Source: Bacilli bacterium
Lineage (GTDB): Bacteria; Bacillota_I; Bacilli_A; RFN20; DUOF01
Assembly: GCA_017517765.1 (NCBI GenBank)
Contig: JAFWYE010000006.1
Span: forward strand, 620,001-684,000
DNA: 64,000 nucleotides
Direction of reading: 5' to 3'
The position numbers were made by a program, and so were the translations under genes. Positions 1 to 47,085 of this stretch are shown here, in pieces. Below the pieces are notes generated by a model. It was not told the origin of the DNA and did not search any database. It saw only the letters and a list, made by a program, of their open reading frames with translations. Every line of letters starts with the position of its first letter. The stretch's first letter is position 1.

Positions 1-94
1 AAAAAGAGTCATATGCATTTATTTTTTTTATGCTCGCTATAATTAAAGTAAAAACTAATATAAATGGAATAATAAAATAACTAACACTAATCAT
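1..94 (-). CDS. spmB: Spore maturation protein B, N-terminal fragment (cut by window edge)
   Basis: Reading the minus strand from an ATG at 94 gives MISVSYFIIPFILVFTLIIA, a hydrophobic start like the beginning of SpmB, followed by a Ser-Phe region near the edge as in the family. A ribosome site (AGGAGAA) lies just upstream, and the ATG overlaps the last 8 bases of spmA, as expected for this coupled pair. In spore formers SpmA and SpmB are needed for normal dehydration of the spore core. Only about 31 codons are in view, so the call rests on this short match plus position next to spmA. Confidence 0.75.
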   Translation of the reverse strand, partial: MISVSYFIIPFILVFTLIIASIKKINAYDSF

Positions 95-665
95 TTTCTT
101 TTCTCCTAAAATAATAGTCACTAATAAGACCAGCTAGACATGAAAAGAAAGTTGCAATAATTGGCAAAAATATCATATCGCTAGGGTTGTTGCTACCTAA
201 TGCACTTCTAATGGAGATAACGGTAGTAGGTATAATTGTTACTCCTGCTGTATTTAAAACTAGAAATGTCACCATCTCATTTGTAGCCTCTTTTTTATCC
301 CCTTCATTTAATTCCTGCATTCTCTTTATTGCTTTTAATCCACTAGGAGTTGCCCCATACCCTAGCCCCAACATGTTAGACACGATATTAGTAGATACAT
401 AATCAAGTGCTAATTCATCTTTAAACTTAGGCATAATTAAAGTAAAAAGAGGTCTAATTTTTTTAGACATCCATCTAATAAAGCCCACATCAGTTAAAAT
501 ATTCATAATGCCATTCCAAAAACATGCACTGCTGACTAAAGTAATAAGTAAACTAACACTTTCTTTTGGAACATTCAAAATTGCATTTGAAACATTACTA
601 ATTCTCCCAGTAAATGCCCCATAAATAATAGAAATAAAAAAGATACTAATCCAAATAATGTTCAT
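87..665 (-). CDS. spmA: Spore maturation protein A
   Basis: This is a 192-residue integral membrane protein of the nucleoside-recognition/SpmA family. The N terminus (MNIIWISIFFISIIYGAFTG), the GRISNVSNAIL segment and the central GLGYGATPSGLKAI stretch are characteristic. Length matches the family. SpmA works with SpmB in spore core dehydration in the developing forespore. The ATG has a GGTGAT ribosome site. A CATATATT box at 681-688 resembles the -10 of the mother-cell sigma-E class but is weak evidence in such A+T-rich DNA. The gene starts 41 bases after the HEXXH paralog at 707-3298 with no terminator visible between them, so read-through from that pair is possible. Confidence 0.93.
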   Translation of the reverse strand: MNIIWISIFFISIIYGAFTGRISNVSNAILNVPKESVSLLITLVSSACFWNGIMNILTDVGFIRWMSKKIRPLFTLIMPKFKDELALDYVSTNIVSNMLGLGYGATPSGLKAIKRMQELNEGDKKEATNEMVTFLVLNTAGVTIIPTTVISIRSALGSNNPSDMIFLPIIATFFSCLAGLISDYYFRRKEND

Positions 666-706: not shown

Positions 707-3298
707 TTATTTCTTCTTTGAAGTAACACTTCTTCTAGAAAATACTTTTGTGATTCTATCAAAATGAGTATCTAAATAAGATAAATATTTATTAAACTCT
801 TCTTTAGCACTACTTGTCTTAGTAAGTGACAATTCTCTTGCCACTTCTTCGCTTATTTTATTTTGCAAATATAATTTATTAAGTTCTTCTAAGTTATCTT
901 GAGACTTTTTATCTCTGCTTGGATTAATTTTATTTTTCAATATAGCAAGATATCTATCTTTATCTTCACCTTTGTTAACAAACTCCACTAATTCCTCAAG
1001 AGAATATTTTCTTAGTCCTTCCATAGTTACTTCATATTCATAGGTTAGTGACTTATATTTCCTTTTAAACTCATCTACCCCAACAAGCTCAATATAATGT
1101 TTATCAACAACTCTTTCAAAGATGGAATCCAAATCACTAGGCCTCTTACTAGAATCTATTCTTTCAATACTGTGATAATATTTTAAAGAACTCTCGATTT
1201 TTGATAGACTTGCTTTTTTCTCTTTAACTGACTTTTTACCATTATCCAACCCAAAGAAAGCATCTGTTAATAATTTAGCTTTAAACTCCGTATCAAACTC
1301 ATAACTAAAGTAATCATAATTATCTTTGTAGTATTCATCTCCTAGAATTTCTTTTATAATCTCATCTTTAGCATAATAGTTAATATCATAATCATCTTCA
1401 AAATTAGCTTCTTCGATATTCTTGAACTGTATAGCGTGATTTATTTCATGATGCAAAGTCTTAATCATATTATAAACACTTCTATTGTGACCATTATATA
1501 AGCTAACCCTTTTTAAATCTTTATTCTCACAACCATAAGTATCTTTATCTTTGCTATAATCAAAAACCTCAACAGAGTAATCATTTAATCCATTGTTTTT
1601 TAAAACCTTTAGTGCATACATTTTTATTGCAAGCATATCCTCAATAGATAACTCACTCCTGTTTTTGTCTTTTAAAGATACAATATGTTCCTCTAAATTA
1701 TCTTTAGAGAGAATCTTTAATAATTTGTATTCATCCTTTTGATCATATGTATATTTTTTAAATGCACTCTTTTCAAGAAGAATTTTAGTATCCATATTAA
1801 TCTTTAACTTATCCATAACTTCTTTATGAGTAAAATAGTTACTAGAAATCATAGACATAGATAGTATATCTTCATTAAAAGCACTTACTACTGCATCAAC
1901 ATCTTTCTCACTAAATTCGTTTGAATAATTAAATGAGGGAATCTCTACAATTAAATTTCTTAGCCTAAAATAAGTATCTTCAAAGAAATTAGACTTAACA
2001 AGCTCTTTTTTCTTAGCAAGTATATTTTTTAGTATAGGGAGTGCTTGTTTTGATGGGATATCAATAAGAGTCTCCTCATCATATCTAACTCCTAACATAA
2101 TCGCAGCCATATTTACATCTTTTTCACTTAATACTCTTAATGCTCTATAATCTGCATACATAAGAAAAGAATCTACTTGCAAGATATCTTGCTTTAAAAT
2201 TACTTCTTTATATCTTTGGTATTCTTCTTCACTTATATCATCTTTTACAAAGTCCTCTAAAAATTCCACATCATGGTTATCATAAGCATTTTTTAAAACC
2301 CTTACAGTAGAATCAAAATCATTTTCTAAAGATGCTAAAAAGAAATTAAAGTTTACTCTAGCAAAACTAGGATGATCTATTAATTTAAAGTTATTATCAT
2401 TTAATATTTTTGCTAATCTTTTAGCGTCTTTATCATCTAAATTCACTTTAGAATATGCTCCATCTAAATTACTCAAAAAAATAGAATAGCTCCCTTTATT
2501 TTCCAAACATGAAAAAAGTAATTCTTTTTCCACATTAAAAACTCCTACCATTTCTTTTAACTTATCTTTATCCTCTTTTGAATGTTTACTCATAAAAATG
2601 TTTTCAAGATGAATTAAACACTCTATATATAAATCTTGATTATCTTTTATAGAGTCAAGTAAAGTATAACTTCTAGTAGATAAAGTCTTTAAAGGGTCTT
2701 TAGCTAAAGATGCATATATAAAATCATGATAAACACAAGCTAACTCTAAATCTTTTGCAGTTAAAACATAATCATTATTTATTAATGTCTCCCTAAATTC
2801 TTTTCTATCTTCTTCCCTTAAAAGAATATTTGAATGTTCTTTTAAAAACTCAATTGTTTTCTTATAATCATTTTTTAAAGATACATTTATTAACCCAGGA
2901 TTATTATAGATAAAATAAGTCATTTCATTAGAAACAACAAAACTATTATCTAAAAATATTCTCTTTATATCATCTGACATTGCAAACGCACTACCATGTT
3001 TAACCAAAATATTTATTGTATTCTTATAATTATTTAATAAGCTTCTTTTTAATAATTCTTCGTTGCATGCAAAAGCCCTGTAATTATAATCATCAATTAC
3101 AATATTTCCTCTATTTAAAATATATTCACTAACCTCTCTAGGATACTTCTTAGCTACCCACTCCATATAATTTTTACTTTTAACAATTCTATCTGGAGTA
3201 CTTTCATTAATAATGTATTGTTCTTTTTTCAACAATTCTAATTCTTGTTTAGTAAGTGTAGTATCACTATTATTAGTTAAAATATCTTCTAGTTTCAT
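707..3298 (-). CDS. Large repeat protein with C-terminal HEXXH metallopeptidase-like domain (shorter paralog)
   Basis: I do not recognise a named family. The protein (863 residues from ATG 3298) starts with alpha-helical repeats carrying the signature V-S-L-K-N-D-Y-x-x-T-I-E-x-L, for example SLKNDYKKTIEFLKEH. A second region near residues 605-675 holds HEINH (H617, E618, H621) and, 50 residues later, YEFDTEFKAK (E671), the arrangement of a gluzincin-type zinc site. No signal peptide or membrane segment is visible, so it is probably cytoplasmic. The ATG at 3298 is preferred over an upstream GTG at 3307 because AGGTG lies 7-8 bases before it. It directly follows the longer paralog, so the two are probably co-transcribed. 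Zinc binding and protease activity are inference. Confidence 0.7.
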   Translation of the reverse strand: MKLEDILTNNSDTTLTKQELELLKKEQYIINESTPDRIVKSKNYMEWVAKKYPREVSEYILNRGNIVIDDYNYRAFACNEELLKRSLLNNYKNTINILVKHGSAFAMSDDIKRIFLDNSFVVSNEMTYFIYNNPGLINVSLKNDYKKTIEFLKEHSNILLREEDRKEFRETLINNDYVLTAKDLELACVYHDFIYASLAKDPLKTLSTRSYTLLDSIKDNQDLYIECLIHLENIFMSKHSKEDKDKLKEMVGVFNVEKELLFSCLENKGSYSIFLSNLDGAYSKVNLDDKDAKRLAKILNDNNFKLIDHPSFARVNFNFFLASLENDFDSTVRVLKNAYDNHDVEFLEDFVKDDISEEEYQRYKEVILKQDILQVDSFLMYADYRALRVLSEKDVNMAAIMLGVRYDEETLIDIPSKQALPILKNILAKKKELVKSNFFEDTYFRLRNLIVEIPSFNYSNEFSEKDVDAVVSAFNEDILSMSMISSNYFTHKEVMDKLKINMDTKILLEKSAFKKYTYDQKDEYKLLKILSKDNLEEHIVSLKDKNRSELSIEDMLAIKMYALKVLKNNGLNDYSVEVFDYSKDKDTYGCENKDLKRVSLYNGHNRSVYNMIKTLHHEINHAIQFKNIEEANFEDDYDINYYAKDEIIKEILGDEYYKDNYDYFSYEFDTEFKAKLLTDAFFGLDNGKKSVKEKKASLSKIESSLKYYHSIERIDSSKRPSDLDSIFERVVDKHYIELVGVDEFKRKYKSLTYEYEVTMEGLRKYSLEELVEFVNKGEDKDRYLAILKNKINPSRDKKSQDNLEELNKLYLQNKISEEVARELSLTKTSSAKEEFNKYLSYLDTHFDRITKVFSRRSVTSKKK

Positions 3299-3307
3299 TT
3301 TAAACAC

Positions 3308-6300
3308 CTACACGTTTCTTCTTTTGTTATATTCCTCTTTTGACATTCTAGAATCTTCTTCGATTATTCTCTCTGCAACATCTAAATACTTAGATAATGT
3401 TACAGCATACTTTTCTATATCTAATTTCTTACCCTTATTAAGGCTGTCAATAATACTTTCTAATAACTCATTTAACTCTTCATCGCCTTTACTAGCTTGT
3501 CTAAATCTTTCAATATCATCTAAATAATTTTCATTATAAACCGGATTTAATCTATGTCTTAATACACACTTATAAACATCTTTATCTAATTCAAAAGCAT
3601 CTTTATAAGAGTTAACTAATTCTTCAATACTATACCTTTTTACAGGAACACTCTCTAAATCATATTCAAACTTAACTATTGGATATGCCCTAGTAATATC
3701 TCTAGGAGTCTTTCCTGTGTTTAGTGCTATATTTAAGCCTAGTTCAAACAATTCATCTAAAGAATATTCTTCTCCATCAAACATTCTTTTTCCACTAAGT
3801 TTGTATTTATTTCTACCTGCCCCAAATCTAGTTAAACTCTCTCTATCAAATAAAGCTTCAATATCTTCACCTTTTGATAAAACTTTATCTTCTAATCTTA
3901 AATTCTTAACAGATTCCATTTGTGCTTTTAATTCTGTATCATATTCAAAACTAATATTCCAATAATTCTCATTGTAGTAATCAAATCTAAAATTATCCCT
4001 TAAGATTGTTCTTAAAAACTTATCTTTTGAATACACAATAATATCTTCGTCACTACTTACATCCATACTAGATACATCTATATCTTGCCTAGCATGATTA
4101 TTTTCATGAATTATAGTTTCCATCATCCCAAATATAGACTCATCATGTCCATTATAAAGCTTTAAGGATTGTCCTCCACAAACACCCAAATTATTCTTCC
4201 CTCTAGCATAACTAAAAATATCTATCTTATACTCTTTTAATCCTTTTTTATAGTGATCTTTTTTAGCAAATAAAGCTAATGCTAGCATTTGAGTTAAATT
4301 CATATCTTTTCTTGTTATACCCATACTTTGCATATGAGCCAATTCATCTTCGATTGTATCAAATTTACTATGCAAACAATCAAGTAACTTTTGCTCATCT
4401 TCTTTATTAAAAACATAGCTACTATTAAAATAAACCCTGTTATATAAATCCACTACGTCCTCATTCTCTAAATGAGGTCTAATTTGTTCCATATTTTTAA
4501 ATGGAATATAACTTAGAGGAGCACCATGACTAATCAAAAACTTTTGATATCTTTCATCGTCTCCCCCACTAAATAATCCCCAAGATAGCATAGCTACAAG
4601 TTTAGGATGCTCTTTAAGATTAATCTCTTTTTTCTCACTCATTGCGATAAGTTTCTCCATAATAGATTCACTTTGTCTTCTATCAATCATTGCATGTGAA
4701 CTTTTAATATTTTCAATTTCTCTTAATGCCCCATCAAAATTTTTCTCTAATCTTTCTACTAAAAGGGATGGTGTTCTAGATATAAGTCTATATAGCAATT
4801 CTGAGTCTCTATTATGATTCTTTAATATATTAACAATCTTATTAACTTCTTCTGCGCTAAGACTTATATTATTTATCATAAGCTTATCATGCATTAGTAT
4901 TTCTCTAGTTTTATCATAATCATTTTCTAAAGATGCAATTAAAAATAATGGATGTAAATATAATAAATTAGCATTATCTTTAGTAGCTACAAAATTATTC
5001 TTTTTTAGCATCTCATAAACTTGATTATAAGCCACTTCATCGCCTAATTTAATTTGAGTAGTCTTATCACCCATCATTAAATTATTTAATGTAGTTTCAT
5101 AATTTTCATTAAGAGCCCTAACAAGAATATTATTATCTTGAGTTATAAATTCTCTTATAACAACATTAAACTTTCTACCAGGTCTAGTTATACCTCTAAC
5201 AAAAGTATCCTCTAAATCCTTACCATACTCCTCTAGTTTTTCTTTAACAAAATCATCTAAAACAAATAACTCATTAATCCCATGTTCTATTGTTCTATCA
5301 AAATCATTTTTTAAAGATACATCAAACATAAAATCCACTAAATATGGGTTATTATCCTTATATCCTACAACATAGTCATTTAGAATCAATTCATCTCTTA
5401 TAGCTTGCTTTGCCTCATCACTATATTTAGTAGAGTCACTCACTCTTAAAAGATTTAAAGCAACTTTATAGTCATCCTGTATAAATTTTCTTATTAACTC
5501 AGGGTTAGAATTAATAAGATGAGTAACTGATTTTCTAGTATTATAAGAATTATCTAATTCATCTATATTTTCTATAATAAGATTTTGAATAATATCATAA
5601 TCTTTTTCACTTATATAATCATAAATATGCTCACCAGAAGTAAATGTGGCAAGCGGATCATTTCTAAATGAATATCTAACTAATCTAGTCATTTCATCCT
5701 TAGATAAAAAAGAATTAAATTCATGATATATTTCACTAGTCATAATAAATCCTGGTTGATTCATAAATATTTCTTCAATATCTAAATTATGTAAGTAATC
5801 TCTAGACTCTTTATTATATCTATCTTTAGCAAGTGCTAAAACAGTATTATATGGATCATGTTCAAAAGAGATATCCACAAAATCCATTGATATCTTAGCT
5901 AAATTCAAATTATTTTCATCAAGAACAAACTTATTTTTTCTCAAATACGGTTCCATAATTTTAAAGTATCTATACGAAGACTCTACATTAAAAGGATAAT
6001 TAGCCATATCAGCCATAGCTAATAAAGTAGCTTCATAATTATTTCTAAGTGAAACCTCTAATACTTCTGGCCATTTATCTAACATCCTATAAGAATTAGC
6101 CTTTAAAATATATTTATCTCCCACTAAATTTGCAACTGTATCTCCCGACAAATGGCTTAACATAAATGACCATTTTTCAAGTAACTCTATTGTAGTATCA
6201 TAATCATTTTGAAGTGAAACTTTTAAAAGCGCAGGACTATTTTTAGCAAGAGCAATTGTATCTCCATCCAAAATAAAATCATGATTCTTATTAATATATT

Positions 6301-6904
6301 TATTTACAATTTCTTCTGTCAATATTTCCTCTACATCATAATGGTGATTCCTTATATACTCCATTGTAGCCTCATAATCATTTTCAAAAGATCTAGTGAG
6401 TTTGAATATAGCAAAATCTCTATCTTCAAAAGTGCCATCAACTTCATTTCCATCTATCCCTAAAACAAAACCCTTATCTTCTCTAATTAAGTCTTTTAGT
6501 ATCTCTAATGATTCAGGAGATAAAAACATACTCATAGTACTTTTAAGAGAATCCTCTACATCTTTTCTTCTGCTCTCTAATAATTTTTCCTTCACTCTTG
6601 GGACATCCATATAAAAATCAACTGTATGAGTATCTAATATCACAGTATCAGGATTTATTATTTCCTCTGCAAGTTTTCTACTCTCATCAGTTAGCAAATG
6701 TCTACTCATTGAATGTGTTAAAAACCAAGAGAAAAATTCTTCTCCATTTTCGTAGGCATACTTTATTACTTCAGGATAAGTTTCATATATTTCTTTATAT
6801 TCTTCAAATGGATGCTCCCCTGTGATATAGAAACGCAAGAAAGACTCTCTTTTTTCTTTATCCAATCCCTTTAACATCTCCAATGTATCAACAAACCCTT
6901 CCAT
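3308..6904 (-). CDS. Large repeat protein with C-terminal HEXXH metallopeptidase-like domain (longer paralog)
   Basis: This 1198-residue protein is a paralog of the next gene. About ten copies of a degenerate repeat are visible, each centred on S-L-x-N-D-Y-x-x-T-x-x-x-L (SLQNDYDTTIELLEKW, SLRNNYEATLLAMADM, SLKNDFDRTIEHGINE, SLENDYDKTREILMHD), consistent with a helical solenoid of roughly 60-residue units with variable insertions. The C-terminal domain shares YNGHxxS, HENNH (H933, E934, H937), a D-D-Y/K-D stretch and SFEYDTELKAQ (E987/E991) with the shorter paralog. No signal peptide or transmembrane helix is seen. ATG 6904 is chosen because AAGAAGG lies 8 bases upstream; a GTG at 6913 is the alternative. 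An extended -10 (TGTTATAAT) precedes the gene. The substrate is unknown. Confidence 0.7.
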   Translation of the reverse strand: MEGFVDTLEMLKGLDKEKRESFLRFYITGEHPFEEYKEIYETYPEVIKYAYENGEEFFSWFLTHSMSRHLLTDESRKLAEEIINPDTVILDTHTVDFYMDVPRVKEKLLESRRKDVEDSLKSTMSMFLSPESLEILKDLIREDKGFVLGIDGNEVDGTFEDRDFAIFKLTRSFENDYEATMEYIRNHHYDVEEILTEEIVNKYINKNHDFILDGDTIALAKNSPALLKVSLQNDYDTTIELLEKWSFMLSHLSGDTVANLVGDKYILKANSYRMLDKWPEVLEVSLRNNYEATLLAMADMANYPFNVESSYRYFKIMEPYLRKNKFVLDENNLNLAKISMDFVDISFEHDPYNTVLALAKDRYNKESRDYLHNLDIEEIFMNQPGFIMTSEIYHEFNSFLSKDEMTRLVRYSFRNDPLATFTSGEHIYDYISEKDYDIIQNLIIENIDELDNSYNTRKSVTHLINSNPELIRKFIQDDYKVALNLLRVSDSTKYSDEAKQAIRDELILNDYVVGYKDNNPYLVDFMFDVSLKNDFDRTIEHGINELFVLDDFVKEKLEEYGKDLEDTFVRGITRPGRKFNVVIREFITQDNNILVRALNENYETTLNNLMMGDKTTQIKLGDEVAYNQVYEMLKKNNFVATKDNANLLYLHPLFLIASLENDYDKTREILMHDKLMINNISLSAEEVNKIVNILKNHNRDSELLYRLISRTPSLLVERLEKNFDGALREIENIKSSHAMIDRRQSESIMEKLIAMSEKKEINLKEHPKLVAMLSWGLFSGGDDERYQKFLISHGAPLSYIPFKNMEQIRPHLENEDVVDLYNRVYFNSSYVFNKEDEQKLLDCLHSKFDTIEDELAHMQSMGITRKDMNLTQMLALALFAKKDHYKKGLKEYKIDIFSYARGKNNLGVCGGQSLKLYNGHDESIFGMMETIIHENNHARQDIDVSSMDVSSDEDIIVYSKDKFLRTILRDNFRFDYYNENYWNISFEYDTELKAQMESVKNLRLEDKVLSKGEDIEALFDRESLTRFGAGRNKYKLSGKRMFDGEEYSLDELFELGLNIALNTGKTPRDITRAYPIVKFEYDLESVPVKRYSIEELVNSYKDAFELDKDVYKCVLRHRLNPVYNENYLDDIERFRQASKGDEELNELLESIIDSLNKGKKLDIEKYAVTLSKYLDVAERIIEEDSRMSKEEYNKRRNV

Positions 6905-6925
6905 ATAACACACCTTCTTAAAAAA

Positions 6926-6975: not shown

Positions 6976-7006
6976 AATAAAAAAAATAGAGATATTAATC
7001 TCTATT
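6976..7006 (-). terminator. Rho-independent terminator of the tcdA-TPR operon
   Basis: A 9-bp stem AATAGAGAT/ATCTCTATT with a 4-base loop is followed on the minus strand by a run of eight T. It overlaps the stop codon of the TPR gene and separates it from the HEXXH pair. Confidence 0.85.
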
Positions 7007-7888
7007 TATATACTTTTCTAAATCTTTACTAAATCCAATCGGTATTCCCTCTTTTGAAGCAATACTTATAAATTCTTCTTCATTAAAATCAATATCTCTA
7101 TCAAGTGGCTTAATTTCATTTAGTTCATCATATAATTCTTTTACCGGATTTAAATTATAGCTCTTTTGATACATTACATATTCATAATCTTTATTAATAA
7201 ATTTATAACAATAGTTACCTACAAAATAATAAAAATCCCCTAAGTCTTCTTGTCTATATAAATACTTATGCGCTGCCAATAGCTCTTCTTTTGCTTCATC
7301 AAATTTCATATTAACTTTAAGAAGTAACGCCTTAAAGAAATATGCTTCTTTTAAAAATGGACTATATAGTTTAGCTAAATCAAACGACAACATTGCCTCT
7401 TTTGTTTTATTTTCTTCTAATAAGATTCTACCATAAATAAAATAAGCATAACCTTTATTTAAATTTGTATAGATAATCTCTCTATCATCTTTATTAATTG
7501 CTTCATACATTTCTCTTTCTTTTTCATCTTCAATATAAACAACATTGGCAAATTCATCATTTATGTAACTATTAGAAAAAGATTTAATCATCGATTCAAG
7601 TAACTCTTTTACTTCCTTTATCTTACCCTTATCAAAATATTCCACAGCAAGACTAATTCCATAATTAATACTATCAGTATACTTATCTAACATTTCTAAG
7701 TATGCTGCTTTCTTATCTCTATCTAAATACTCTTTTTCCTTTATCAAAATCTTATCTAATAAATTATTGTATCTAGGATGACTTTTGTATTTTTCTTTTT
7801 TAATATCAAGTATCTCTAAATTAGACTCATAATCATTAGATAGATCTCCAAAAACATCCTCTATAATATCTTTTATTTCCTTTTCCAT
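6995..7888 (-). CDS. TPR-like helical repeat protein
   Basis: This 297-residue soluble protein looks fully alpha-helical. The segment around residues 125-255 carries TPR-like units, for example YFIYGRILLEENKTKEAMLS and FFKALLLKVNMKFDEAKEEL, with the small/aromatic pattern of TPR helices. It has no enzyme motif, signal peptide or membrane segment, so it is probably a cytoplasmic scaffold or adaptor. It is the last gene of a tight operon with tcdA, a TtcA-like enzyme and a lipid kinase, 10 bases after the kinase gene. The partner is unknown, and the operon gives no single pathway to borrow a function from. Confidence 0.6.
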   Translation of the reverse strand: MEKEIKDIIEDVFGDLSNDYESNLEILDIKKEKYKSHPRYNNLLDKILIKEKEYLDRDKKAAYLEMLDKYTDSINYGISLAVEYFDKGKIKEVKELLESMIKSFSNSYINDEFANVVYIEDEKEREMYEAINKDDREIIYTNLNKGYAYFIYGRILLEENKTKEAMLSFDLAKLYSPFLKEAYFFKALLLKVNMKFDEAKEELLAAHKYLYRQEDLGDFYYFVGNYCYKFINKDYEYVMYQKSYNLNPVKELYDELNEIKPLDRDIDFNEEEFISIASKEGIPIGFSKDLEKYINRD

Positions 7889-7898
7889 TATTTCACCC

Positions 7899-8732
7899 CT
7901 ATACTTCTACTTTATAAGATAAAACATCATTTATTGTTTCCCCATCAATTTGAAGTGCAGTAGGTTTATCGAAAGTAACCTCTATAATTTTTCCTTTAGT
8001 CATTCTTACATTTTTATCATATTTTGGATGTTTTCCTTTAAAAATGCTTGGAAAAATCCACAATGTTTTAAGCTTACTTTTACAAAAATAAACTACACTA
8101 GTAAGTAAACCATCTTCCCTATTTTGATATGGAGCAACCATCATTCCCCCACCAAAATATCTCCCCTTCATACTAGGAGCTAGCCAAACATTTTTATATT
8201 TATTAACCACACCATCTACACTAACAATAGCATTAACTGGTTTATAAGCAAAAAGTAATCCTTTAATAGCTATTAAAGTATAATTAATTTTCCTTTTGCT
8301 ACTATTTTTTCTCATTTCATTACCTACATAAGCACAATATCCATCAATTCCATATCCAATTCCATTAAAGAAATATCTTGTCATTCCATTTACTGTAACC
8401 TTAGGTAAATTAGTTAAATATTTATTAATATGAGTGAAATCTTCTTTAGAATTCAAATCATTTAAAAAATCATTTCCACTACCCGCTCTATACATATAAA
8501 TGTCATTATGAATATCTTCTAAATCTATATCATTAACAAAATGATTAAGAGTCCCATCCCCTCCAACAAGAATAACATCATCATTGCTAGATAAGTTCTC
8601 CATAAAAGATTTAGCATCTAATCCGATTAAATTGATGCACTCATATTTTCCTTTTAACTTTTCTTTAACTTCTTCAACTACTTGTTCACCTTTTTTATTA
8701 TTAGACAATGGATTATACAATACATATTTCAT
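7899..8732 (-). CDS. Diacylglycerol/lipid kinase family protein
   Basis: The 277-residue protein has the diacylglycerol kinase catalytic fold. NPLSNNKKGE near the start is the nucleotide-binding loop, GGDGTLNHFVND (from about residue 57) is the signature motif, and RAGSGNDF follows. The C-terminal lobe with LQIDGE is also typical. Enzymes of this family phosphorylate diacylglycerol or related lipids at the inner face of the membrane, feeding phosphatidic acid back into phospholipid synthesis. YegS/BmrU-type proteins share the fold with uncertain substrates, so DagK itself is not assured. It sits 2 bases after the TtcA-like gene in the same operon. Confidence 0.85.
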   Translation of the reverse strand: MKYVLYNPLSNNKKGEQVVEEVKEKLKGKYECINLIGLDAKSFMENLSSNDDVILVGGDGTLNHFVNDIDLEDIHNDIYMYRAGSGNDFLNDLNSKEDFTHINKYLTNLPKVTVNGMTRYFFNGIGYGIDGYCAYVGNEMRKNSSKRKINYTLIAIKGLLFAYKPVNAIVSVDGVVNKYKNVWLAPSMKGRYFGGGMMVAPYQNREDGLLTSVVYFCKSKLKTLWIFPSIFKGKHPKYDKNVRMTKGKIIEVTFDKPTALQIDGETINDVLSYKVEV

Positions 8733-33758: not shown

Positions 33759-36700
33759 TTAAATTACTCTAACCTTTTTCTTAACAAATATTCTATATCC
33801 TGGAATAAGCGCTAAGATACCCGTCATAAATATCATTGTCCATCCTAATGGATCTTCCATAAAAAAGTTAGTACCAACACTATATCCTAAAACTCCATTA
33901 GCAACATCTTTAGTAACTACAAACACAATAACTGTACCGCCAATATTTGTAACTTCCTTAATCGCTTCTTTACTAATGAATTGTTGTGCCACAAAATCAA
34001 ATTGATTATTATTTAACCTATTTGCAACACTTCCACTACTTACTAAGAAGTAACTATTTTCAGGATCTAGAGTTCTATATCCTAATAATCCATTACTTAC
34101 ACACTCAGAGCCAGTTACTTGACTTGGTAATGCAAATATAATTACATCATCTTCTGAATATGTATATCCTTCTTCTTTGCCACCAATAATCAAGTTATTA
34201 ATTTGATAGTTATAATGACGTTTAACATTAACCATAGAACCATTGATACATACATTATTTGTATTATTAACAGTAACCATTATAACACTTCTATTACCTG
34301 CTGCGTCAACAATAACAAATGTATGTTCACCAAATGACTCAATCAATTCACCGGTATATTTCTTATCTTCAGAGTTGTACTCTGCACTATACATTGCACC
34401 ATCAACAGTAACACTTACAATTGGTGCAATCATCTCATTTTCAGGAGCGCTCCAAGAAAGAACTACATCTTTTCTTACAGATTTACTATCTCCTGATAAC
34501 TCATATTTAGGAGCTTGTCTATAAATATAGAATGTTATGCTCTCTCCAACATGTCCAACACCATCTATTGGAGTCAATACATATTTACCTTCTCTAGTTA
34601 ATCCTAGTAGAGAGTCATAAGTCATTTCGGCTTCATAAGTTTTATCTGCCTCATTTAGCGCAGTATAAGAAACCTCTATACGAGAATTAATTTCAGAAAG
34701 TTCATCAATTACATTAGCTTTAACGCTATCGATATTTGTATACATATAAGGTGCCATACTTGCTTGTCCGTTTGAAACATTAATTGTTGGTGCCTCATTA
34801 TCTAGAGCAAACCAATCCTTAGATGTATTTCCTAAATTAATTGGATCATCTGTAGCAACAATCATAAAGTATCCTGACTTATATATATCAAATGTATATG
34901 TAAACTCTCCACTATCAATTGTATCAAATATTTGGCCGCCTTCCACCAAACTTCCATTTGGCAATCTTGTCATACATACATCATCTTTAATGTCATCACA
35001 TTTATATATTGTTGCAATATTTGTAGCATCCTCTGAATCTAGAGACACCACAACAGTACTAATATATGTTGTTGTTCCTTCAGCTGTTCTACCATCTATT
35101 GTAATGATAGGCGCTTTTCTATCAATTATTACAAATAATTTAGTATAAATATCTGATTTTCCATTAATAGAAACTGTAAGTTCTATTCTTATTTCATCTT
35201 TTAATCTATCCTCGCTACCATACAAGAATACACTATCTTGGCTGATAGGATCTTTTAAAGCATAAATGCTATTATTATATGAACTATAATTATTACCATT
35301 TACTACCATAGAATATGTATATTGTTCTAAAGTACAATCCTTAGTTAACAATCCATCCATACACTTTAATATAGCCTGAGTTGGAATTCTTTCTCCATAC
35401 TCATATTGTCTTCCAGGAATAACCTCGCCTGCAGCATCATATAATGGAACACCTGTAGTCGGATTAACCATAACTTCAAATAAACCAACATCAGGAGGAT
35501 TTATTGTTATCTTAATAGTATATACAGCTTCACCATTTTCATTACCAACAGCATCCACAAATTTAAATTCATATTCATGAACACCTGCTACTATTGGCGC
35601 AAATTTATATGTAGCTCTAAATGGTATTGTATAATCTACACCTTCGTCTATTGTTACCCATGTAGAAGGGAATTCACTATCACCAGGAGCTTTAACTCTA
35701 TATACTAATGAAGTAAAGCTATAAGATGCATATCCACCCCAAGCAATTGTAACAAACGTATTTGTGTATTCAATTGTTTTTGATTGGCTAGAAATAATCT
35801 CTTGTGTATCTTCTACATCAGCCTCTTCACTATTGTCTAGATATAGATTAAAGTTTTGATCATTTCCTGGTAGAAGAGAGTTATCTGGTGCAGTGCTATC
35901 CAATTCGATTGTATAACCACCAAACATATTTTTTGCAAATCCTTTGATTACTACTTGCGTATAATATTTATTTTCTTCCCATGTTGTAGAAGAACCAGGA
36001 ACTTGAGCATAATTTCCTTCTTCATCTAAGTAATAATACTTATCATAATTTATTTCCCAATCATCTGGTCTTTCTGTTGTTAACTCCAATTTGTTGGCAC
36101 CACTAACACCTACAAAATTAGCTAATCTAGTAATAGTATCAGAGAATAAATCTATGACCTCTACTTTATATACTCCATCACACGCATGACTGGCATCATT
36201 GATAGCAGCAATCATATATATACCATTACCTTTATCAGATATACTTAATTCGCAAGAACCAACCTCAACTGTATTAACCCCTTCAAAAACAGAAATGCTT
36301 ACCATATCAATTTTAGAAGGTTCTACTTCATCAAGTGTCAAATTAGAATATGCTGGATATTTGTATACATTTACATAATTCAAATTAGAATTAACCTTTA
36401 TTGTAAAGAAGCTATTAGCAATTAAATTAACATCATCGTATGTGTGAATATTATTAACAAAGCCTTCTTCCTCAGTTGCAAATGTATTCTCTATAATATA
36501 TGGATTGAAAATAAATTCTTTATAATTACTATTTCCGAAGTTATCCACGATTTCTAATTTATACGCTCCAACACAATTATAATCTTCATTGTAATTGAAT
36601 CTAAATTCTATATTAGATGGCAATGTACCTGTTGTTGATGTAAGCATTGAGTAACATATATTACCCGCATTTGAACTGATTAAATCATATTCTTTATCAA

Positions 36701-39700
36701 CAACATCATATTTATAAATCTTTACATAATCATTACTTAATCCTGTAACTTTAGATTTAGTGCTAATGCCAATTAACACATTTGAATTAGTTGATTCATC
36801 ATACTTAGAATATTCAATTTCTGGAACTTCATCTGTATGTGAGAAATTAATTATAACTTTGTTTCCTGCGCTATCTATAATAGACATATTATTAACAGTT
36901 TCAGCTCCAATATCTATAATACATGCAAATGCATCTTTTATATAATAAGTTCCTGTTTGCCATGTCTCATTTGTGTTAGCAACATAATTGCCTCCATCAT
37001 AAGTATAGAATAACGTATATGATGTATCCCAATCACTAGGTTTATCATTTATTAAGCTATATCCATCAACACGAACAATCTTTCCATTTAAATTGTGATA
37101 GTTCATTTTTCCATTCGTTATAATCGATAAAGTTGCATATGAATATATTTCACTGAATTTACCATTTTTAACAGTTGTTACAACTTCGAACAATCTACTT
37201 ATATCGCCATTCTTACTATTGAATAATTCAATATGCGATTTTTTATTTAAATATCTAGTTGTTTCTCTATCAGTTTCGTTTTTAAGAGCTAAATCAAAAA
37301 TTGTATGATTTTTTGCATATACTGGAATAAGCGGGCAGCTATATCCTTGAGATGTACAAATATCCCAACCAGAACTATATGTAAACTCTATATCCTTATC
37401 CGAATACTCATTTACGCTATCGAAAAGTTCATTTTTATCATTGAAGTAAGCCTCTTTATAATAATCATAATAATGAGTTCCTCCAATTGCAGGTTTATAT
37501 TGTCCCATTGAATAATCATATGTACTAAAGTAAGTTACAAATACACAACCATTTGAATATGTAGCTCCTTTAAACTCACAAGTATTCTTGTATAAGTTAG
37601 TATTTTCTATCTTACTTAATTGCCACCATTGTGAGTTTACCCAAATATAATCACCATATTCAGCAACATTATGATCATTATCATATCTAGTTATACTTTC
37701 TAAAGGAATGTAATTTCCTAACTCAACATAATTTAAGTCTGTTGATTCCGCATATAATCTAACACCAAAGTAAACAACGTTACTATGATGCGGATTTGTA
37801 TTATCTTGATCTATATATATAATAGTTCCTTCAGATCCTGAAACTAATTTTTGCTTATCACAGTTTGAGTTAGAAAGGGTTCCTCCCCAGCCTAATCCTG
37901 TGCTTACACAACTAATTGTATGAGTAGTTGTATCTAGTGCCAATTCTATTGTATTATTTACACCACTTATAACTTTCAAGTTAACTTTTATACACTCTTT
38001 GTTAGCTTCTGGACTACATCTATCACCAGCAAATGAGTAAGTGTAAGAAATAGCCCCATTAACAACAACTCTTGTTCTTAATAAATATGTATATTGATAC
38101 ATAGTGCTTGTTAAACTAGCATCTGTATAAATAACTTGTCTAATTTCTGGATCGCTAAATTTTCTTTCCGCAGTAAATGTTGGAATAATCATTTCATATA
38201 TATCTTGCAATATTGTAGTCATTACTGTATCAACAGGTGTCTCTGGAGCAAAATATGTTGTGTGTCCAAATGCATTATAGAAATCATAACCACTAGCAAT
38301 TTGTGTTGATACACTATCATAGTATAAATTATACATATACAGTTTTGCCTCTTCGTAACTAGCGATAGCATAGAAGTTAGGACTATTAAAGTTACCAATA
38401 TATTTTGAGTCTAATACATTAACATCACTTGCTATAGAGTAATCTACAGAGTAGTAAGTTCTAGCCGCAAATTCAGGATTTGTATTAGCCACATATGATT
38501 CTCCATCAAGCACATAATAACTCTCATACTCAGCTTCCCAATCAACTGGTCTATTAATAAGAAGATTATATGTAGGAACTTTTAACTCGTTATAATTTTG
38601 ATAATTATCAACATTTAATGTTGATGTAGGAACACTAAACCAATAGTTAATACCTGTCGGCTTATTGTTATCAGCGTTAACTGTATAAGCAGTATTATCT
38701 ACAATAAGAGAATTAGCTAACATAGTGCTCATGTTTCCATATGTATCTTTTAACATTAGAGCTCTATAAACCCCATCTTTATAAACTCTAGCCGTAACAT
38801 TATTAACCACGTAAGTTTGTTCTCTATTTTTCTCACAATCACTCTCGCCTTTTCCAACAACACAAAGGGCTGCATCTCTTCCTACTAAATAATAGTAAGT
38901 TTCATGAACCATAAACCCTTTTGACAAATCTGCTTGTTTATATTTAATTTCATAAACTACATTTCCCTTATCGTCCATATAGAATACAGTAACAATTTTT
39001 TTACCACTTTCTATTGTTTCTGTATGACTCATATATCCCTCATAGCCAATAGCATTAGTTTTAGATACATCAACATAATCTTGAATACCCTCATCATATG
39101 AAACCAATGTTACATCTGTAGAATTTGAGCCATCTTTGATTTCTATATAGTTAGTATCATTTTCAACAAAAGACAATGATCCACCCATGTATTCACTAGT
39201 ATATTTATTACCATATATAGTATAAACTACATCTACTCTATCTTTATTTATAACAAAGTATACTGTTGATATGTTTTTACTCAAAACATATGCTGCAGTA
39301 GTATAATCATTATCTTCTTTGTAAAGTAAATCAGACTTATAGGCATATTGACCTAAGTCATATGCAAATGCTTTGTAAACACCATTGGAATCGTTTCTTC
39401 TAAATGTATATGAATTATATTGTCCAAACATTATTCCTCTAGGGTTATATAGTAAATCATCAACGATAGCACAAGATGTTGGATCTTCTGAATATTCATT
39501 AATGCCACAAGTATAGAACAATACTTTAGCATTTGAACTTATATGTGTTGGTGAGTCAGTAGCTACAAATGTAACAGCACTATTGATTTTTCCTGTAAAA
39601 TCATCAGGATTAGTAGATGTTACATTAGAGAATAATAGATTTCCTCTATCATCTTGAATATTAAGATCTGGCATTATTGTATCCATTACAAATACTTGTT

Positions 39701-42700
39701 TATAAAGGATATTACTACTATTACCTGCATAATCTTGTACTTGATATGCAATTTTATAAACTGCTATTCCTGTGTTACCATCAATTTTAGTAATCGGATT
39801 CAAATCTGTACCAATATTTGTCCATACTTGAATATCATTATAAGTATTATGTTTTAACAATTCAGAGAAATAATATGTGTTTTGAGTATCAATAACATAA
39901 CAATATTCAGAATTTTCACTATAAGCAACGCATTGCTTATCGTTAACTGCAGTAGTTTTAATTAACAAGTAATATGTTTTGTCTTCGTCTTTTAACTCAT
40001 AATCATCAACTTTTCTAAATTTGCCTTCTTGAGTTTTTTCATAGTTCTTATATGTTATCAATGGTGCATATCTATAGAATTCATGATTAACCACAGTAAG
40101 TATTGATCCTTGATCATCATAAATATCTAAATCTGAACGATATTGATACGCATCATCAAATGCATTATTTGTTGTAGCATATTCAATATATGCGTTTGAA
40201 TCTCTTCCAGATGCAAAGTTGATTTCAGGATTTATTCTGTCAATTACAATTACAATTTCAACTGAATCTCTTCCAGCAAAATCACTAACAACAAATTTGA
40301 TTATCCTAAATGTTGATTGATCACTATCATCAGTTTCAAATAAGAAAGTTGACATCTCATTATCATAATCAAACTTAGTATTAGTAGGATACTCACAACT
40401 ACTAGTTAATAAATCACCATTTCTATCATATTTAGTTGTTGTACAAGATTTCATTTGTGATATAAATTCGCTAAATGTAACTTGAACATTACTATTTGAC
40501 AAATAAACAGTTGATGGAGCACTATCGTTTTTTAAGACATAATCATGTGACGAAATTACTTCCCAAGAAGTACACTCTCCATATTCATCTTCTTGTACAC
40601 ACTTTTTGATGCCACCTTCAACAACATAAGGTGAAATTCCATCTTCTACAATAATAGGTAAATATTGACCATTAGGATTAATATTTCCAACAGAATCCAT
40701 CATTGTCACATAAATCCATCTTGCATCTCCGCCTGTAGTAGGTACACCAAATTGAAAGTTAACCGGACTTCCGTCTTTCATTTTTATTGATTTGTTAGAA
40801 CCATCTGTCTCAACCTCATAGAATACCATTGTTATAACATTATCAAAGGCCTTGATAGTAGGATCTGTAGCGTTATGAATATCTTCACATCTTAAAATAT
40901 AAGTGTATGCAGGATCTGTAGTTACATATCTTGGATCAAGGAATTTAAATCCATTTATTCTGTCACAAGTAAACGTTTTTCCTACATAATCATTTGAAAT
41001 AACAGTAATTGTTCTTTCTCTTATATTTGCATTATTAATTTCTTCGTTAGTAACATATGTTTTGTTTACATTATCTGTTCCATCCTCTTCATATGTTGGA
41101 GGAACATAGTCTGCCCAGAAGTTTATTTCTATATCTTTAATAGTAACATTTCCTAAAGCGTCTTGAGCAGATATAGAAACAATAACATTTCCATCGTATG
41201 GCAATCCAGCCAATGTTTCAATTAACTGCAAGCCTGTAGGAATGGAACTCATTTGAATTTCTGTATTTAATTCATATTGATTATTAGCAACTGCAGGACA
41301 AATATCTGGAGTAGAAACAGCGTTTCCATAAGTAAATGAATAGCAGTATGAGTTAACATTACTTAATCCATCTTCTATTCTAATTGTCAACTTAGGATCT
41401 TTAGTGTAAGCTCCTACTAAATATGCATCTCCATTATCATTAGGAATAAAGTTAACTGCCCCATCATCAACTGCAGTAAGAGTTATTGTTGGCGCGCTCT
41501 TATCAATTACAAATTTGTATATTTCTTGGTTTCCACTTGCATCTTGGAATATAACTGTGTAGTTTCCACTATTTGAGAAGATAAGTCTTGATGTTCCGTT
41601 TTTATCTTCTGAAAGCGTAGTATTGATGTATCCTTTAGAACACTCATTTGCATAATTATCATCAGATAAAGCTTTCGCCACATTACACAAGTATGGCGTA
41701 GTATCAACAACAACATGCATCATTAATAATCTATTTTCTCTTGCATCTGTAGTATTTTGAGCTGTGTAGTAATTTAAGTCAAAATGTACATTACTAGCTC
41801 CACCAATTGTTGTTTGCGAATTTGTACTAGTCAATACATATTCTCCATCAACTTTTTGGAAGCTATATAAAGCGTTATTAGTAAATACAAAGTCTCCACC
41901 ATTAGTAGTCAGCGTAGTTACTTTGCCATCAACTGTATTCTCATTGAAGCTATCATCTATATAGAATGTTTCTGTTAGTACAGCAGTAGCATTAACATAT
42001 CCAGAAGCACTCATTTTTGTTTCTACCACACTAATCTCATAGAATGTGTTAAGACCACTAAAGATATATGCTCCTCCACCAGTCAAAACTTCATATATGC
42101 CATATGTTTTTAACACGGCATAATCTATAATTCCTGTGTCATCAGAATTTTCTGGTAAATACATAACAACTCTAGATGAAGATGTACATACAGAATCTGT
42201 TGGTAGCGGGTCATCTATACCAAAGGCGCTACCTAAAATCACAATTTCTTTACATACAGTGTCTGCAAAAGGTAGTCCATATTCATTTTTGCTATTATAA
42301 ACTCTTATTGTAAACACAATATTAGTTTTTACTGTAAATCCAACAAATACACTATTTGGTGAGAAATAAGTTTTTTCGTATCCTGAAATTTCAGGCACTT
42401 TGCTGCTTCCAAGCGGATATACATGATCTTCGCTAAAAGAAGTAAGTTGAGTTGCATCAACAACAGTTCCTGTGAAATCGAATGGATGACCTGTTATACC
42501 ATCAAAATAATAATTTCCATCAGTAGGAGTTAGTACTCCTGGATGTGAAGCAGAATAACCTATTTTCAAATCTAATTGTGTAACATATAAACTAGCACTA
42601 ACTGGTTTTATTGTTCCAAAGTCAAGTCCTTGAGTTATGTTAAAGTCATATATACCATCAACTATATTAAAGTGTTTAGTTCCTAATGTTTCATCGATTG

Positions 42701-45700
42701 TATATATTTCTAGTCCTGTAAGTGGATCCACGTCAACTGTTTCTGTTCCATCTTTGTATTTTGGAACAGTATATGGTATATCAACACCACCACTAACAAC
42801 TCCATCTATTGTTTTAGTTGTTCTTGTGAAAACAATTTCAATTCTTTTTGATGTTAAAATTAATGGGTTTGCATATTCAATTAATCCACTTGTAGGATTA
42901 TATTGATATATAATTTTTCCATTACTATCATTGTAATCAATTCTAAACGTATTATCCGCCTCAAGTTCATATGACAGTGGTAACGCTTGAATATATGTAC
43001 CTTCTTCTTTGCTTATAACTAATTGATAACGTCTTTGCTCTGTGGTTGCAAATCTAAACTGATTAGTATTTGAAAGTACAATCGCAGAACCTTTATCCAC
43101 ATATTCAATAGTTCTCTCAAAGAATTCACCACTAGTAAATTCAGGATTGCTATTCAATACGTATGCAGTACCGTTGTGATAATAATAATTTGTATAATGA
43201 AGATCCCAATTATCTGGTTTTGTTGACAATTGGCCATAATTAAGTTTCATTTCTTTTTCTTGAATTATTCCATTTTCATCATAATGATAAATCACGTTAT
43301 TTCTAACAAAGAAGTTATCTCCTAAATAGAATGTTTCTCCTTCTTTTTCATATGTGGCATTAGTTAATTCAAATCTTTCTTCATATCCTGCAACTTCCAC
43401 AAAATAGCCATTATCAATTTTATAAGTGTAGCTATTAATTGGGTTAGCGTATAGCCCTGCAGCATCTGGAGTTAAAACTACAGTTCCATCAATATTTTCT
43501 CTATCTCTATAACTTACTGCATAAATGTAATTTGTAACCATTTCGTTAAATTCTCTTGCAGCATTACTATCTTGAGCGAAAATTGTTTCATCGTTTTCAT
43601 CATCATAACAAGGATCAGCTGAATCAACTACGGAACAAGATTGTCTAGCCAAAGAAGTAATCATAAAGTCTTTTATGCTATTTGTTTCATAGAAATTAAT
43701 TGTTAAAGAGAATGATGTTGTAACCATTTCTGGTTTATCTACTGTTCCTCTATTTTCCTTTACAAGATCTGTAACAATTAAACTTGGCGCATTGGTACCT
43801 ACAACAAAATAGAAAGTTATAACATTTCCACTTCTATCAGCGAAAGTAATAGAATTTACCTTTGTAGGATTGCTCTTATTATATCTAAATGATTGATATA
43901 CATATTTATCTCTGTCAGCCATACATGTCAAACTATTGTCATTACATGTTATCGGATAAACAGTTTTATTAACCATTATATAAGCATAATCATCAATATC
44001 AATTATGTCATTAATATCAAAGTCTTTAGCAATGTAAGCAGGAGTATCTGCACTATTACCTCTTTGAGAAGTTGAGTTATGTTCTTTATCTCCAATTGTT
44101 GGAACGTTATAAGCAATTTTTGGAGCTGTATTGTCTAAAAAGAATGTTTTAGCTTTTCCTTTTACAAGGTCTATTCCAGTTCCATAACTGTAATAAACTT
44201 CATAACATGCATTCGTAGATATAAATACAGATGAGTCATTGTAATAATAAAGGATGTTTCCACTAGCATCACTAACAGCTCTTAAATCTGTATAAGTAGT
44301 TCCATTATATAAATATTTATAGATAGCTACTGGATTAGGCTCTCCATCAACTGTTTCTAGAGAAGAAGAAACATATCTTCCGCCAAAGTAAACATTTTTC
44401 TTAGTACCAACATAAATTTCTTTTTTAGCACCATTTTCACCTAATTCATATACATTAATTGTTAAATTTGTTGTTGCTGTTCTTAAAATTTCTTGATAGC
44501 TAGTTAAATATTCTTTTGTATATAATTCTTGCTCATATTCATCAATGTCGCTAGAAGGAATACTGCCATTGTAAATAGTGTTTCTTGTGCTAACAAAGTA
44601 ATTATTATAGTTTAAGAAATCTTTAATAACTGAATTGATAGATTTCAAATCTGCAAACGCATATCCTGCTTTACCACTACAGTTTGAAACTGTTGAACTT
44701 GTTACTCTACAAGCATCAACTGAATTAGATGTGCTACTATTACCAACGTAGTCTATATAATAAATGTAGTAGCTAGCTCCACTAGGAATATATTGTCCTG
44801 AATACAAAGAAGCACCTAATGTTTCTCTAGGAACACTTCCATCTACTCTTACGACTCTAGAAAATTCTTGATAATAAGCATACATTTTTGCATATTCTAT
44901 GCTTCCAAAAGCCGCACTTAATTGATCTGAGTGATCAAAGGTTTTTGCGTTAGGATTACTTGGATCGATATGTTCCATATTGTATCCAGTTGTATTTCCC
45001 ACATCAAAATAATATCCGATCATATCATATATATCTTTAGCAGCATAAGCACTACCAGTGAAGTAATAGCTAAAATCAAAGTTATAACGAACTGTAGTTG
45101 AAACACCGTTTTGAATAAACTCGTATTCTGTACTACCTGGTACTAATCTTATCGCAGTAGAAGCAACATATGTGTATGATCTTGAATATGTATACCACTT
45201 TAAAATACCTGTTTTTCCATCAGTTAAATCAATAGGAACTGGGGCACTAGTAATCATAACTGTTCTATATAAAACAATTTTTGCTCCAGTATCTGTAGTT
45301 ATATGGTATTCAAGTAAAGCTCCAATTCCTACTTCAGTTATAACAGAACTAGGAATATATTCCCCACTTGAATCACTGTTTCCAATACAACTAGATGGTC
45401 TAACTATAGAACTATTGTATGCAACTTTATAATAGCAATATTTATAATGAACTTCGCTTGGTGAATCCACTCTAACCAAATTTATTGTTTCATTTGTTAA
45501 TTGTGCATTGTATTCATTCAAGAATCCTCTGTTATCCAAAACTAAAAGCATTGGGTCGCTTATTGTAACTTTCTTTGGATAGTAAACATCGACAACTTGA
45601 GCGTTATTTTTAACAATTTCTCCATAATAAGAAGGTCCGTATGGAGTATTAATTGTTCCATTTAATGAATAATTACTATTTCTAGACACAATTGTTTCGC

Positions 45701-47054: not shown

Positions 47055-47085
47055 ATACCCCACTGCCTTTCATTTCCATGTTTTA

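Follow-up and report, generated by a model that had tools for sequence, protein, structure and literature searches.

Two adjacent genes of a Bacilli bacterium encode the large proteins P0001 and P0002, which we propose, with moderate confidence, to be cytosolic gluzincin-type zinc endopeptidases whose alpha-solenoid repeats select the target. In the proposed mechanism, the two His of an HExxH motif and the Glu of a downstream [FY]E[FY]DTE segment would hold one zinc ion, with the Glu of HExxH activating water, and the N-terminal helical repeats would form an alpha-solenoid that captures a particular protein, either a target or a partner, and delivers it to the C-terminal active site. Since the solenoids differ in length (about 10 repeats against 4-5), the paralogues would probably have different targets or work as a pair. 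We infer zinc binding, catalysis, solenoid function and targets: that catalysis is real is suggested by conservation of the HExxH Glu, and target selection by analogy, since alpha-solenoids usually work in this way. The combination of repeats with a zincin domain is new, the active site underlying it is of a known kind, and we put it forward as a well-supported prediction. In Bacillota, AAA+ machines with adaptors are credited with most cytosolic proteolysis; if the prediction is true, a soluble zincin with a repeat-built recognition arm of its own would amount to a targeted protease that is complete in itself.

Gene calls and neighbourhood of the tandem pair

Features are listed in coordinates of the window, meaning the whole stretch of 64,000 nucleotides that was analysed, except for spmB, which lies outside it.

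3308..6904, reverse strand: P0002, 1198 aa, likely start ATG 6904, possible start GTG 6913; predicted all-helical N-terminal region with about 10 repeats, then a C-terminal HExxHxxQ zincin domain
4679..6496, reverse strand: P0002 repeat array, period about 55-67 aa, core SLxNDYxxTIExL
3434..4426, reverse strand: P0002 zincin domain, residues 830-1160 in GTG numbering
4085..4108, reverse strand: P0002 HENNHARQ (H933, E934, H937 and Q940 in ATG numbering), invariant in 21 members, partly by construction
3944..3946, reverse strand: P0002 E987 (ATG numbering), proposed third zinc ligand, equivalent Glu in 20/21 members
707..3298, reverse strand: P0001, 863 aa, likely start ATG 3298, possible start GTG 3307; about 4-5 repeats, then a C-terminal HExxHxxQ zincin domain
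2267..3148, reverse strand: P0001 repeat array, same period (about 55-67 aa) and core (SLxNDYxxTIExL) as in P0002
818..1765, reverse strand: P0001 zincin domain, residues 515-830 in GTG numbering
1427..1450, reverse strand: P0001 HEINHAIQ (H617, E618, H621 and Q624 in ATG numbering), invariant in 21 members, partly by construction
1298..1300, reverse strand: P0001 E667 (ATG numbering; 670 from GTG), proposed third zinc ligand, Glu in 20/21 members
87..665, reverse strand: spmA-like gene, Gate domain at 25.0 bits, under the Pfam cut-off of 29.6
L098:4071-4622, same strand, outside the window: spmB, which follows and overlaps spmA

The open reading frames were called at 707-3307(-) and 3308-6913(-), GTG starts included, and adjoin each other, confirming the tight tandem arrangement described in the sequence-only reading. 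Because a Shine-Dalgarno-like motif, AAGAAGGTG or AGGTG, can be read ∼6 nt before ATG 6904 and ATG 3298, respectively, these internal ATGs are likelier starts than the GTGs, and the end at 6904 given by that reading agrees with the likelier ATG of P0002. The TAG of P0002 abuts the P0001 reading frame, in the same frame and inside the P0001 ribosome-binding region, and the two genes are therefore probably translationally coupled. At window positions 3298-3310, a single TAG and three codons part P0002 from P0001 in one frame, such that read-through of this TAG would yield a fusion of ∼2070 aa carrying two protease domains. In neither P0001 nor P0002 did we find a hydrophobic segment fit for a signal or membrane helix (19-residue Kyte-Doolittle maxima of 0.97 and 0.83), and the first 40 residues of both fall below 0 on this scale. 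The absence of a secretion signal is thus confirmed by hydropathy, and both proteins are probably cytoplasmic.

A gap of 42 bp separates P0001 from the start of spmA, which is read from the same strand, so that spmA/spmB do lie directly downstream of the pair, as first read, and a simple scan found no terminator-like site between P0001 and spmA on their strand. This arrangement, together with a Spo0A match encoded in the host genome, would suit a sporulation-stage protease that is co-expressed with spmA/spmB. A search with a profile of the shared domain had been suggested as a way to find conserved neighbours, and in the relatives examined the neighbourhood proved not to be kept: around the family genes of G002, G003 and the other relatives read, the surroundings are unrelated and lack spmA/spmB, making the link a local one. 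We have therefore set the sporulation linkage aside and consider this role distinctly improbable.

Several other features of the surroundings were observed. Upstream of the pair lies a gene at window 6995-7888 (-) that encodes 297 aa with a TPR-like look and has no Pfam match; its transcript may end at an AT-rich hairpin with a trailing run of T at about 6980-7005. Diacylglycerol-kinase-like and QueH-like genes occur near the zincin gene both here (window 7899-8732 with L098:2418-3050) and in G751 (L066:2922-6488 (-)), in a different order and probably by chance. Further away, window 33759-47063 (-) holds a 4434-aa open reading frame with a signal-like N-terminus and a hydrophobic C-terminal stretch, apparently a giant surface protein.

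Conserved residues of the zincin domain

The C-terminal domains of P0001 and P0002 align by BLASTP at 28% identity over 365 aa (E=2e-31), so the shared domain is real. Each carries three motifs, LYNGHNRS, HEINHAIQ and YEFDTEFKAK in P0001 and LYNGHDES, HENNHARQ and FEYDTELKAQ in P0002. In a core alignment of 21 family members, among which pairwise identities are often near 20%, both His and the Glu of HExxH and the Gln three residues on are present in 21/21, an invariance that is partly by construction, as later members were picked from hit loci by HExxH (some by HExxHxxQ). The Asn of a YYxxNY segment (21/21) and the Glu proposed as third ligand (20/21) played no part in member selection, and the Asp two residues after this Glu is found in 17 of the 21. 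The retention of these His, Glu, Gln and Asn residues and of the third-ligand Glu at identities near 20% therefore argues for selection for a metal site. The lone member without the third-ligand Glu, G419, looks secreted and is poorly aligned at that position; its gene (L085:622-2250 (-)) encodes a signal-like hydrophobic N-terminus (Kyte-Doolittle 1.55).

At the level of sequence, these counts bear out the earlier description of HExxH with a conserved downstream Glu as gluzincin-like. The downstream segment offers two Glu residues in an ExxxE arrangement, of which the second (P0001 E671 in ATG numbering) is kept in a five-member clade from the same taxonomic family and is not generally kept outside it, leaving the first as the better ligand candidate. 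The YNGH segment, which had been described as a motif of the shared domain, is a feature of the pair only; other members lack it, and we set it aside as a catalytic motif.

The very large non-catalytic part of both proteins raises the question of an inactive scaffold, in which the zincin fold would be kept for binding and would not catalyse. The HExxH Glu, however, is needed for catalysis and not for the fold, and its invariance in all 21 members makes such a scaffold very improbable.

AlphaFold2 models computed with three input sequences reached a pLDDT of 58 (P0001 domain) and 55 (P0002), with pTM of 0.31-0.46, and both low-confidence models contain a helix, two short strands, the HExxH helix and more helices. 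This order of secondary structure around the motif suits a zincin, yet a pLDDT of 55-58 is too low to place the ligands together. The first ∼890 residues of P0002 are modelled as almost all helix and loosely match alpha-solenoids. Fold searches with these weak models were uninformative, the hits being helical solenoids of a generic kind (TM-scores about 0.1-0.2) and no zincin, and solved structures gave no significant match to the domain of the pair.

Repeat arms and spread of a divergent family

The repeat arrays, about ten units in P0002 and four or five in P0001, were cross-validated: an HMM built from the P0001 units scores 67.9 bits on P0002, where the best of 200 shuffles reached 7.0, and one built from the P0002 units scores 53.2 bits on P0001, where the best of 200 shuffles reached 10.9. 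Several weaker repeat-to-repeat BLASTP alignments also connect the two proteins, and the HMMs match no other protein of the window. The repeats are genuine and beyond chance, in line with the helical repeat arrays noticed at first reading. No Pfam repeat family (TPR, HEAT, ankyrin and others) matches P0001 or P0002 at E<=1. Searched against other members of the zincin family, the repeat profile gave nothing above the shuffled level, and in 57 other genomes it found unrelated genes only, including matches in G008, G015 and G020 that were rejected after reading the genes. Because of these absences, the repeat arm is, as far as these searches reach, a local addition, with other members bearing other N-terminal parts, and the repeats cannot be essential to the chemistry of the family. 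In two members (G691 and G811; L063:4062-5291 (-) and L071:1015-2277 (+)), an N-terminal Cys4 zinc-ribbon-like segment (CPxC...CxxC) replaces the repeats. G002 also encodes, at L010:13049-14182 (-), a 377-aa protein made of near-perfect repeats of ∼27 aa (IPQEIINQYVANGGNLxxLTKEQ).

Iterative profile searches, in which new members were taken into the profile, recovered a 566-aa paralogue in the same genome (G000:C3), single relatives in two genomes of the same family (533 aa in G003 and 430 aa in G002), and a remote 350-aa paralogue with HExxHxxQ (G000:C2, L039:5105-6157 (-)), giving four copies in the host genome. Longer members are scattered in f17, another family of the class, where the first profile matched 6/98 genomes. 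A scan of 84,980 genomes gave no match with P0001 alone and only the G003 homologue with A3. Two weak profile matches were rejected on reading the genes, an M32 carboxypeptidase-like protein in G461 and an RNA polymerase alpha subunit in G492, and matches in other g105 genomes are probably of the latter kind. In a tree of the family, the pair, C3, G002 and G003 form one clade (support 0.997), within which P0001 groups with the G003 homologue (0.885), and P0001 and P0002 are thus not clearly each other's closest relative. The C2 paralogue falls among f17 sequences (0.94), a grouping that may reflect horizontal transfer or an ancient duplication.

Identity in the domain is 25-32% among same-family genomes versus 51-59% for TrmE, and 19% versus 42% in the comparison with G287, so by this measure the zincin domain evolves much more rapidly than a housekeeping gene. 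Such fast evolution, the patchy presence with four copies in the host, and the variable N-terminal parts, zinc ribbons included, are what a conflict protein might show, that is, a toxin or anti-element factor acting as a protease against invading elements or competitors. We judge this quite unlikely, as no PADLOC model matches, searches of viral contigs, phages and plasmids found no relatives, and the genes sit beside housekeeping genes with neither an export signal nor an immunity-like neighbour.

Returning to targeted proteases, the alignment places the catalytic domain as one branch of a fast-evolving, uncharacterised and divergent bacterial family with at least 21 aligned members, for which a searchable profile with a clear residue set is now at hand. 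Tentatively, and with less confidence than for the pair itself, we suggest an unlisted intracellular zinc-peptidase family, patchy in one Bacillota class, in which a constant catalytic core is joined to swapped recognition parts, here an alpha-solenoid of a new repeat in a tandem of two proteases with different targets.

Comparison with known metallopeptidases

By its motifs the domain is gluzincin-like, and it is placed in no named family. No Pfam, NCBIfam, PADLOC or PHROG model gave a convincing fit to P0001 or P0002, in keeping with the first impression that no family of this make-up is known. DUF6782 (PF20573, a putative metallopeptidase) matches P0001 weakly over the HExxH helix, at 15.5 bits against a cut-off of 27, with no match in the host genome at E<=0.001; for SprT-like (PF10263, cut-off 25.6 bits), the C3 paralogue scores 12.8, and P0001 and P0002 have no match.

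ImmA/IrrE (M78) proteins are, like the pair, cytosolic HExxH proteins, and they suggest another reading: a cytosolic gluzincin activated by stress or a partner and cutting one regulator, with the repeats as sensor or partner-binding module instead of a general arm for targeting. The first profile drew two HTH-ImmA/IrrE-like proteins (E about 1e-4), and comparison of A8 with these two reached a probability of 89.6% across the region of the strand and the HExxH helix. This alignment, however, rests on two sequences only and misses the third ligand, whose spacing differs in ImmA/IrrE. The pair has no Pfam match to the ImmA/IrrE family, and no XRE-type regulator lies beside the pair, the C3 paralogue, or the G002, G003 or f17 members read. 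We regard an ImmA/IrrE-like protease as unlikely.

The targeted-protease reading finds its nearest counterparts among small, unnamed zincins. A 12-member profile also reached proteins of ∼150 aa with the pattern HExRHxYQ...EIDA in f16 and f28 of the same class, which have weak DUF3920, DUF6782 and SprT-like scores. Proteins of this kind (HExRHxYQ...W...IEIDAI; A10; for example L086:1396-1893 (+) and L089:1339-1827 (+)) are common, and one relative lies on a plasmid of Tenericutes bacterium MO-XQ (CP017949.1). The best matches of the small-family profile among solved structures, both HExxH proteins and both below significance, are MJ1213 (E 0.04), which we take to be the minigluzincin projannalysin, and Ste24p (0.57); profiles A2 and A8 did not match solved minigluzincins of the MJ1213 type.

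The term minigluzincin is used for a fold class that has been compared with Wss1-type proteases (PMC4559962). MJ1213 shares with the domain of the pair a soluble minimal HExxH scaffold. The third ligand of minigluzincins is described as a third His and not Glu (PMC6925264), which would differ from the Glu seen in the pair's family. Ste24p, BlaR1 and MecR1 resemble the pair in an E-x-x-x-D/E-like helix (compare HE205LSH and E245KVCD; PMC6925264), and an HExxH plus ExxxD arrangement has been proposed for MecR1 (PMC6925264). Unlike the pair, minigluzincins and Ste24p have no repeats, neither matches it significantly in sequence, and Ste24p is embedded in the membrane. The ∼150-aa proteins differ from the pair in standing alone, in an invariant Trp and in lacking both repeats and the YYxxNY segment. 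Like the pair, they have an HExxH[AV]xQ helix and, downstream of it, an E-x-D-A helix, and profile-profile comparison of the two families (probability 97.6, E=2.8e-12), with the HExxH and Glu helices in register, points to a probable link between the pair's family and these small zincins.
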